Positions 574-34,698 of a DNA stretch of 64,000 bases are shown here, piece after piece. Origin of the DNA: Cherax quadricarinatus. Taxonomy: Eukaryota; Arthropoda; Malacostraca; Decapoda; Parastacidae. The position numbers were made by a program, and so were the translations under genes. The notes under the pieces were generated by a model. The model was not told the origin of the DNA. It saw only the letters and a program-made list of their open reading frames with translations, and ran no database searches. Within the stretch, counting starts at the first letter, position 1; every line of letters starts with the position of its first letter. The DNA is taken from assembly GCF_038502225.1 (NCBI RefSeq), contig NC_091298.1, forward strand, positions 31,228,496 to 31,292,495, read 5' to 3'.

Positions 574-654
574 TTTTTCTTATATACGCTGTATAATCCT
601 ACGGGCTTAGCGCTTCCCCTTGATTATAATAATAATAATAATTTTTCTTATATA
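574..654 (+). mobile_element. Ultra-short retroposon copy 1 with target-site duplication
   Basis: A ~55-bp insertion (587-641) begins GCTGTATA, contains GGCTTAGCGCTTC and ends in an (ATA)n tail. It is flanked by a perfect 13-bp direct repeat TTTTTCTTATATA at 574-586 and 642-654. The duplication and simple-repeat tail are the signature of LINE-mediated retroposition. Two further copies (24852-24899 and 34632-34684) start at essentially the same base, so the unit looks complete rather than randomly truncated. GGCTTAGCGC resembles a tRNA box A (TRGCNNAGYGG) with a mismatch; a tRNA-fragment origin is inference. Confidence 0.8.
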
Positions 655-1035
655 AAAAGTCAGATCTCATTTCCAAAACTGGTCCAAGGATCATTGTTCA
701 TGAGAGACAGTGGACTTCAGAGTGAACGAGATGATGATAATCCGTGAATAATTTCTCAGCATTTTTCAAAACTTGTTCAAGTTTAGTGTTCTTACTTTGG
801 TAAAGTTTACGATCTGGTTTGCATCCTTGAGCACTGAGTGGAACTCAGCACTATCTTTCTTGGGTTACTAGGTTTTCTCGGTGCAGGAAACACAGCATGA
901 GTCAGTAGGCTTGCTACAATTCTCAATTCTTGTCTTCTTGTTTCTGCTAGTAGACTTCTGCAACGTTTATAAGACTCCATTCTTATGCTTGAGCTTCACG
1001 TTGCTCCGGACTATACAGCTTAACTCTTCTTCAGG
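655..1035. other. Unique intergenic DNA
   Basis: No gene, tandem repeat or match to the repeat families of this window was seen. Confidence 0.5.
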
Positions 1036-1215
1036 CTGAGGGACTGACCACCTCAAAAACTGTTTCTCCAAGGTTGATGGGCTGATTACATAATCTTTAC
1101 CTTGTCACTACTCATGGAGCCTCCAAATTATTCTCATCTGTATTTGACCGAAGAAGCCTACCGTGTAGGCGAAACATTTCAACAATAAAGATACCCAACT
1201 GTTGCACATTTGACT
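1036..1215 (+). mobile_element. Penelope-like terminal-repeat fragment with hammerhead-like core
   Basis: Contains the family block seen at 50.7-50.9 kb: GCTGAGGGACTGA near 1036, a hairpin GCCTAC/GTAGGC (1156-1161, 1165-1170) followed directly by GAAAC (1171-1175), then an AATAAAGATACCCAA-type tail and TTGCACAT. The order CUGANGA, stem II, GAAA is that of a hammerhead ribozyme, but here the first box has drifted to CCGAAGA. Assignment to Penelope-like elements rests on the known presence of hammerhead motifs in their terminal repeats. Confidence 0.55.
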
Positions 1216-1785
1216 TATCAAAATTCCACTCGTCTTGCCATAATATCTGGGGCTGCCTCAGTGCAAACAGTCAACCAATACGTCCACTCAGCACCCGAGG
1301 GCGAGGTTATTGAAGACACTGTTCTCGCAGCTGACAGTGAAATACAAGAGATATTCTTTAAGAATTTTTTCTCACATTTACTAAACGAAAATCATTATCT
1401 GAGGATCATCTCTAGTATCAACAGACTTATATTATATGGAGGGGAAGCGCTTCTGCTTTTGTCAGCATTATAAGAGTTTGATCCAAGATATCTACAAAGA
1501 TTAAATCAGTTCGCCGTTTGGTATTATTGATGGGAAATGGTACCATATCATGTTTTCTCGCCACTTCCTCTCCCCAAACAGTACTTGTTATTACAGTGGC
1601 AGTTGGCTTCACAAACTCTTCTCCAGTGTTGTGAAAATTATTGCATTGCACTAATTTGCATGCATCATCAAAACAAACTAATTTGGTTGTCTGTAAACCA
1701 AAAAAAAAAAAATAGACATTCAGAATGCATCAATTGTAATTCGTTTGGCACAGCTTTATTTTACTCTTCGGAAAGCTCAATTCTT

Positions 1786-1935
1786 TGCTTAAATAGCAAT
1801 GCTCTTCTTATCAAGTAAGGCAAGTGAAAATTTGTGTATGCAGTAATCTCGAGAAAATCATTCTGAGCCTAACGAGAAAAGTATATTTCATTGTGTTTGT
1901 TTATTTGTTCATTTGTGTTTGTTTATTATAAGAGA
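1786..1935 (+). mobile_element. Partial, diverged TIR element (GTCGTGCCGAATA family)
   Basis: An internal stretch matches the ~390-bp TIR elements at 6.8-12.3 kb: TTAAATAGCAATGCTC, AAGTGAAAATTTGTGTATGC, then a degenerate CTAACGAGAAAA block and TTTCATTGTGTTTGTTTA. The terminal repeats are missing at both ends. It directly abuts the RTE relic starting near 1941. Confidence 0.6.
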
Positions 1936-1940
1936 AAGAT

Positions 1941-33869: not shown

Positions 33870-33952
33870 TAGCGACGAGTGAAGAGGCGGGGCCAGGAGC
33901 TCGGACTCGACCCCTGCAACCTCAACTAGGTGAGTAACTAGGTGAGTACGTA
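33870..33952 (+). other. 3' UTR and tail of CR1 copy B6
   Basis: GGCGGGGCCAGGAGCTCGGA, CGACCCCTGCAACCTC, then AACTAGGTGAGT and AACTAGGTGAGTAC, followed by (CA)n and (TA)n. The AACTAGGTGAGTAC form is the closest tail variant to the 53-58 kb minisatellite unit. Confidence 0.85.
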
Positions 33953-34062
33953 TACACACACACACACACACACACACACACACACATATATATATATATA
34001 TATATATATATATATATATATATATATATATATATATATATATGTATATTTATATATATAAT
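33953..34062. repeat. (CA)n followed by (TA)n
   Basis: Compound dinucleotide tract between CR1 copy B6 and TIR element copy 6. Confidence 0.97.
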
Positions 34063-34449
34063 GTCGTGCCGAATATGTAAAACTTGCGATCTTGGCTTAA
34101 ATATCAACGCTCATCTTGCCATATAAGACAAGCGAAAATTTGTGTATGCAATAATTTCGCGAAAATCATTCTGAACCTAACGGAAAAAATATATTTCATT
34201 GTGTTTGTTTAGTATTAAATTATTGTAAACTTATCTAAAATATATTTAGTTGGGTTAGGCTAAAATAAATTGTTGCTGTTATAATAAGGTTAGGTAAGTT
34301 TTCTAAGTTCCTATTCGTGTAAAATTATAATTTTTTACATCAACATTAATGAAAAAATATATCTTTAAAGGTATAAGAGAAAATTTAAGAAAGGACTTAA
34401 TTTTAAATGAGTTCTTGCTAATTGACCAGTTTTACATATTCGGCACGAC
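34063..34449 (+). mobile_element. TIR element, copy 6
   Basis: 387 bp with both TIRs. Next to the left TIR the ATGTAAAAC end sequence replaces the usual GGCAGAAC, so both ends look alike (terminal conversion between the two ends). Confidence 0.85.
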
Positions 34450-34525
34450 ACACACACACACAAACTATATATATATATATATATATATATATATATATAT
34501 ATATATATATATATATATATATATA
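34450..34525. repeat. (CA)n and (TA)n
   Basis: Short CA run then TA dinucleotides 3' of TIR element copy 6. Confidence 0.95.
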
Positions 34526-34617
34526 ATCAAAGGTACTGTATGTTCAACACCTCATAATAATATCATAGGTGAGTGTGAGTCGTTCATTGGTTAGGGATAG
34601 CAGATCTGTATAAAATT

Positions 34618-34698
34618 TTGACGAATTTGGGTTGCTGTATAGCCCTTTTGGCTTAGCGCTTCTTTTTGATTATAATAATAATAATTGACGAATTTGGG
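34618..34698 (+). mobile_element. Ultra-short retroposon copy 3 with 14-bp TSD
   Basis: TTGACGAATTTGGG at 34618-34631 and 34685-34698 brackets a 53-bp insert starting TTGCTGTATAGCCC, with GGCTTAGCGCTTC and an (ATA)n tail. Same unit and same 5' start as at 587 and 24852. Confidence 0.92.

Follow-up and report, generated by a model that had tools for sequence, protein, structure and literature searches.

This locus of Cherax quadricarinatus raises the question of how a piece of DNA of only about 50 bp came to be inserted three times with the same beginning. The window, by which we mean the whole 64-kb stretch of DNA that was analysed, contains three inserts (587-641, 24852-24899 and 34632-34684) that share their 5' start and have (TAA)n tails; all of them begin with (G)CTGTATA, preceded by zero to two extra bases. 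The first-pass annotation had described each insert as lying between its own perfect target-site duplications (TSDs), and we confirmed the coordinates, with TSDs of 13, 14 and 14 nt. The features are given below by position in the window and strand.

574..586, + strand: left copy of the TSD of insert 1, TTTTTCTTATATA; exact 13-nt match to 642-654
587..641, + strand: insert 1, a SINE-type 3' module (AATCC..GGG..CCCC) with (TAA)n tail, starting CGCTGTATA; compared with SINE copies of the same genome
642..654, + strand: right copy of the TSD of insert 1, matching 574-586
24838..24851, + strand: left copy of the TSD of insert 2, CTGTCATGTTAGAG; exact 14-nt match to 24900-24913
24852..24899, + strand: insert 2, a LINE-type 3' module with tail, within a frame that stays open where the insert is absent
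24900..24913, + strand: right copy of the TSD of insert 2, matching 24838-24851
34618..34631, + strand: left copy of the TSD of insert 3, TTGACGAATTTGGG; exact 14-nt match to 34685-34698
34632..34684, + strand: insert 3, a LINE-type 3' module with tail and an extra TT ahead of GCTGTATA
34634..34657, + strand: remnant in insert 3 of the predicted terminal hairpin (GCTG..AGCC, loop, GGCT..TAGC), placed by position from the LINE folds
34685..34698, + strand: right copy of the TSD of insert 3, matching 34618-34631

Removal of insert 2 restores the reading frame, a putative Penelope GIY-YIG domain in the first-pass annotation, as had been annotated: the frame ends in HFCHVRAV* with the insert and in HFCHVRDHSHPVH* at the empty site. 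When a profile of the three inserts was run over the 64-kb window, only those three matched, with E-values of 3.7e-14 or better, and the next E-value was 1.5. Comparison within the same genome showed that inserts 2 and 3 are identical in kind to the 3' end of a LINE and insert 1 to the 3' end of a SINE. Because insert 3 begins partway into the 5' arm, its predicted hairpin remnant, located by its position in the LINE folds, is missing the three outermost pairs of the full LINE hairpin. As the annotation had proposed, the units are retroposed pieces of about 37 nt, tail excluded, that have their 5' end in common, and every one of them was inserted separately.

The 13-base core of the module, GGCTTAGCGCTTC, occurs 20,630 times (10,251 + 10,379) in the 3.95-Gb genome, compared with one occurrence for the reversed-pattern control, and a 24-mer of the tail occurs 15,215 times. 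Our sample comprised 80 fetched stretches, which covered 84 of the 100 core places listed on one contig (C1). Dropping a long copy located where two stretches end (L060/L061) left 83 copies, which together with the three window copies made 86 distinct copies, selected by the exact core and spanning 0.8-7.9 Mb of that contig together with the window. We classified 47 of them as short copies with a TSD of at least 9 nt, 31 as continuing 5' into the LINE and 8 as other; among the last, LINE homology stops at 15-18 nt in five and continues for 3,555 nt in one, and the other two had no LINE match. TSDs of at least 9 nt were present in 47/55 non-long copies, and 42 of the 47 short copies, which were preselected for 9 nt or more, had TSDs of at least 12 nt. 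Swapping flanks between copies, as a control, gave duplications of at least 9 nt in 10/2,162 pairings and of at least 12 nt in 0/2,162.

The short copies carry the marks of target-primed reverse transcription (TPRT): TSDs of 12-14 nt (38/47 copies), the (TAA)n tail and a nick preference for Y|T (43/45 and 40/45 copies), the T of which may in part belong to the tail. By eye, nested insertions were also seen in this material, namely a stub within the ORF1 region of another LINE copy, a stub within a SINE and a SINE within a LINE module (L084, L067, L061).

The inserts correspond to the 3' terminus of a 6.4-kb I-type LINE of the same genome, and the variant in insert 1 to that of a SINE. In the long copies, the sequence 5' of the module is the 3' UTR and ORF2 of this LINE. 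One copy (L070) has an ORF2 of 1,250 codons in which Pfam recognised Exo_endo_phos, RVT_1 and RNase_H domains; ORF2 also has a YVDD motif and, by pattern match, a C-terminal CCHC motif. Two CCHC motifs were found in ORF1, likewise by pattern match, and Pfam gave no match on ORF1. Another copy (L079) is bounded by a 12-bp TSD 6,379 nt upstream, and the tail of the LINE consists of TAA repeats. The domains, CCHC motifs and TAA tail match the architecture of the I factor, and it is by this architecture, rather than by a match to a named family, that we assign the element to the I type. The Drosophila I factor has an APE endonuclease, reverse transcriptase, RNase H and a C-terminal CCHC motif in ORF2 as well as a tail of TAA repeats, and three CCHC motifs in ORF1 (available text of PMC2881922). 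Compared with the I factor as covered there, the crayfish LINE agrees in its ORF2 domains with C-terminal CCHC, in having CCHC motifs in ORF1 and in its TAA-repeat tail; it differs in having two CCHC motifs in ORF1 instead of three, and in producing stubs of about 45 nt as a main product beside long copies. Some of the LINE copies that reach a word at -6,198 (with the core's first G taken as position 0) are densely clustered at about 41.04-41.45 Mb of contig C1, with 12 of 16 on the + strand among the matches listed.

How the lengths of the copies are distributed bears directly on the origin of the short ones. An exact 29-mer reaching -16 occurs 14,836 times genome-wide, and 6,096 times when the next six LINE bases (to -22) are included; exact 22-mers further upstream occur 7,255 times at -690 and 5,368 times at -6,198, counts that do not form a strict curve, since the word lengths differ and mutation breaks longer words more often. 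The count drops between -16 and -22 and is then nearly flat to the 5' end of the LINE, so that the length spectrum is nearly two-state: copies either measure about 45 nt or run to hundreds of nt at the least, often to full length. LINE sequence runs for at least 950 nt in 25 of the 31 long copies; 20 of these were seen only to about 1 kb, and five (L070, L071, L079, L084 and L086) for at least 6.4 kb. Intermediate lengths were found in 5/31 (54, 106, 118, 246 and 642 nt), and one further copy is cut by the end of its stretch at 182 nt. Truncation therefore occurs elsewhere too, as these five intermediates and a short copy starting at about -34 (L032) indicate.

The first-pass annotation had argued against 5' truncation of a longer LINE, since random truncation would not place three copies at an identical start. 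Our data contradict this, as 31 of the 86 copies run into the LINE 3' UTR, 25 of them over 950 nt or more. The inserts therefore begin at a truncation hotspot of a longer element, which comes close to one possibility that the annotation itself had considered; the other, that most copies extend further 5', did not hold, with 6,096/14,836 doing so. Truncation that is random along the LINE, with the common start a coincidence of three copies, is a different matter. A few intermediate copies do exist, but 40 of 47 starts fall within 7 nt and the genome-wide counts show a cliff followed by a plateau, by which this reading is already contradicted and scarcely credible. Like 5'-truncated LINE copies elsewhere, e.g. 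those of human L1 (available text of PMC2881922), the crayfish stubs retain the 3' end and tail, have TSDs and have lost the 5' part; unlike those of L1 as presented there, their truncation clusters at one place and the sample holds few intermediates.

The partner SINE is about 165 bp long and ends with a variant, ~45 nt in length, of the hairpin and tail of the LINE. Searching the fetched stretches and the window with a profile gave 148 matches, 54 of them without the exact core and many from the SINE. With a 5'-anchored pattern we obtained 13 SINE copies, 12 of which measure 160-177 bp to the tail end; the remaining one, of 234 bp (L067), contains another insert. A TSD of 9-13 nt abuts the 5' start within 2 nt in 11/13 copies, so that the SINE has a constant 5' end and TSDs, and its tail is shared with the LINE. 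Copies occur in L060, L030, L077, L082 and other stretches, and exact SINE-type 3' modules number 18,868 genome-wide. For the head of the SINE, tried on one copy region, Rfam gave no match near the gathering score.

Across 61 distinct LINE and SINE modules, 604 of 652 cells of the predicted hairpin pair, only slightly above shuffled modules (at most 599); slid controls reached at most 0.53 of cells. There were 29 double-sided pair changes, in 3 of 11 pairs, and 24 of the 29 are at a single pair (mainly G-C in the LINE and A-T in the SINE), which may reflect a single old event. Pairs of a SINE and a LINE that share their 3' tail and stem-loop are known as cases of 'stringent' recognition (available text of PMC3747384). 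The crayfish SINE and LINE resemble them in having a common terminal stem-loop (here predicted) and tail; they differ from the pairs treated there in that the crayfish module inserts alone, thousands of times, from the edge of the stem-loop.

Next, we compared the 5' ends of the short copies with the predicted folding of the LINE RNA. Among the 47 short copies with a TSD of at least 9 nt, 40 start at -15 to -21, with 6, 18, 3, 2, 1, 3 and 7 copies at the successive positions; five start at -8 to -14, and two were placed by eye, L032 at about -34 and insert 1 of the window at -17. No base separates the TSD from the module in 28/47 copies, one base does so in 8, two in 5 and three in 2. The four larger gaps involve a satellite target (L038), a T-run (L048), the extra LINE sequence of L032 and the variant module of insert 1. 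In folds of the long LINE RNA, which included some 3' genomic flank, the predicted hairpin has its 5' arm at -19 to -13 and -9 to -6 and its 3' arm at 0 to 10, with mean pairing of 0.74 to 1.0 that does not fall below 0.9 at -19 to -13 (folds of 27 long copies out of 31). Predicted pairing is 0.76 at -21 and 0.59 at -20. The C/T-rich stretch from -35 to -22 would be mostly unpaired (0.01 to 0.35), and the upstream sequence is not free of structure, with 0.71 predicted at -37. Since the starts at -15 to -21 coincide with the predicted boundary of the 5' arm, the short copies begin at the 5' edge of the predicted hairpin.

Taken together, we consider it probable, at roughly 0.65, that the inserts are retroposed 3'-terminal hairpins with (TAA)n tails, produced when the reverse transcriptase of the LINE copied, by TPRT, an RNA that began at the predicted base of the hairpin. 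The upstream RNA would have been lost beforehand, leaving a trimmed stub protected by the hairpin or by protein. The enzyme of the LINE would bind the hairpin and the UAA repeats, carry out TPRT on the stub and run off the end of the template. The I factor is said to need its UAA repeats, according to work by Chambeyron in 2002. Protection by the hairpin alone appears doubtful because not all stubs are predicted to form it: in folds of single stubs, those with a GCTG start and AGCC keep the hairpin as the best structure, whereas the AGTCC variant and insert 1 of the window fold otherwise (best energy -6.0 and -6.3).

The main rival keeps the template intact. Here the enzyme would copy the tail and hairpin of a complete RNA and then fall off, and the short cDNA would be joined to the target; in one version, RNase H degrades the template as the new cDNA adopts the same hairpin. 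The LINE enzyme indeed has an RNase H domain, and the two groups of starts at -15/-16 and -20/-21 bracket what would be a nearly complete re-folding of the hairpin. Microhomology at the 5' junction was mildly in excess (at least 1 nt in 18/47, p 0.03; at least 2 nt in 7/47, p 0.026), which is also compatible with abortive synthesis and end joining. Against this stands the place of the stop, which would have to come after the hairpin and not before it, little structure being predicted for -35 to -22. Moreover, the exact-word counts are nearly flat beyond the hotspot to -6,198, and stubs are less frequent among copies of the SINE, which has the same hairpin. On balance, we regard such a strong stop as a rather unlikely source of the short copies.

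The SINE comparison was made in two ways. One scan, in which near-identical copies were merged, found stubs in 2/20 SINE-type vs 42/60 LINE-type modules, figures that leave out 25/148 matches without a CTGTATR start (including a stub-like SINE-type match in L057), file one SINE copy of L057 as 'other', count one of the two SINE stubs (L042) without a tested TSD and, owing to the merging, contain 18 long LINE copies vs 31 in the exact-core sample. Set against the LINE figure of the exact-core sample (46/77), the SINE stub figures give a Fisher p of 8.5e-5. Genome-wide, the body motif was kept in 13,896/18,868 SINE-type vs 6,096/14,836 LINE-type modules by exact motifs, a contrast in which mutation inflates the 'truncated' class in LINE and SINE alike and 26% of the SINE-type modules lack the body motif. 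If the hairpin by itself stopped the enzyme, SINE templates would be cut as often as those of the LINE, and the SINE is stubbed less. The contrast favours, without deciding for, loss of upstream RNA from a long transcript over an intrinsic stop. A stub template is preferred to an enzyme stop because of this difference, the little structure predicted just upstream and the plateau past the hotspot.

A further reading takes the short copies as an independent micro-family with its own promoter, either the box A-like TGGCTTAGCGC or a cryptic start at the LINE 3' end, mobilised as a 45-nt SINE. Clustered 5' ends and thousands of copies would suit it. However, the short copies have the variants of the LINE at the frequencies of the LINE: Y=T in AGYCC occurs in 13/47 short vs 8/31 long copies (Fisher p 1.0), and TTTTTT in place of TTTTTG before ATTATAA (the T6 variant) in 8/47 vs 4/31 (Fisher p 0.75), in a small sample whose 47 short copies include the SINE-type insert 1. 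A single micro-family would be expected to have a variant set of its own, so that the short copies likely arose repeatedly from the LINE pool; given the small sample, the agreement lowers the case for one separate lineage without excluding it. Runs of five or six T are expected to stop RNA polymerase III, and 43/47 short copies contain such runs. Extra 5' bases derived from a cap would be G; among the 15 copies with one to three extras, only 3 have a G there. The sole box-like stretch, moreover, is the predicted 3' hairpin arm of the LINE 3' end, and altogether we hold a micro-family to be improbable.

The tRNA origin that this stretch had suggested to the first-pass annotation is likewise unsupported. 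ARAGORN (bacterial settings) found no tRNA in the 64-kb window, and Rfam gave no match in the window and none in insert 3; these results lend no support to a tRNA-fragment retroposon, and the supposed box A is explained as the predicted hairpin arm. Nor was there support for the ~50-nt unit as a short SINE in its own right, since neither Rfam nor the tRNA scan recognised a polymerase III head, no sequence lies beyond the LINE/SINE 3' module and, judging by the two variants in the small sample, a lineage of its own is unlikely.

Returning to the trimmed-stub reading, a stronger form of it is that a protected RNA stub of about 45 nt, defined by the hairpin, is itself the substrate of retrotransposition, and that every transcript of the LINE ends up as a full copy or as a stub; this we put forward tentatively, at somewhat less than even odds. 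If true, the stub would be the smallest complete retroposon, formed as a main product of a LINE, and at the same time the minimal recognition module common to LINE and SINE. Why LINE copies truncate and what the enzyme must see in order to start are open questions that are usually studied with blurred truncation spectra. Here, the outcome is nearly two-state, with a sharp boundary at a small predicted hairpin, and thousands of repeats, and the matched SINE provides an internal comparison. With RNAs of about 45 nt, it would become possible to test directly what the minimal template is and whether truncation is due to template loss or to an enzyme stop. For annotators, such inserts would easily be missed or called micro-SINEs.

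Outside this genome, the translated module matched three proteins predicted from other contigs (P0001, P0002 and P0003), the score of P0001 being partly circular in that the profile contained its motif. P0002 and P0003 read through the module in antisense; in both, it stops at an identical 5' base, and their flanks are different. No TSD could be demonstrated for these two, an equally long compatible duplication having appeared in 272 and 315 of 3,000 shuffles, respectively. The module patterns had no match in public viral contigs, nor had the first pattern in prokaryote contigs; a looser pattern gave one prokaryote match, in a Bacteroidales MAG, which was rejected as a chance stretch. In the searchable portion of the literature, the letters of the core appeared in one unrelated kiwifruit paper and longer strings in none. 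The accessible parts of the open-access literature, including PMC2881922, PMC13295347, PMC7805219 and PMC3747384, yielded no description of hairpin-bounded LINE stubs.

The window also contains RT-like ORFs of other LINE types, identified by eye (8020-10380 on the - strand, 15579-18269 and 30136-33866 on the + strand), and the module profile had no match near their ends within the 64 kb. A second TAA-tailed element of about 290 bp is present in two copies (11038-11334, +; 63543-63251, -) that are 98% identical and have the same start, ATCGACACCATGCC. One is flanked by AAGTTCTGCCT (11026-11036/11332-11342, by eye) and the other by AGCTAAAATT; the element could be a SINE mobilised by the same machinery, or else a further discrete product of a 3' end. 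Long arrays, of a 28-bp G-rich unit with a GC skew of 0.85 over 44001-48000 and of a 14-bp unit, occupy 44010-49026 and 53229-58023. Finally, positions 22949-23641 form an array of ACCTA units, a pentamer that resembles a telomere repeat.
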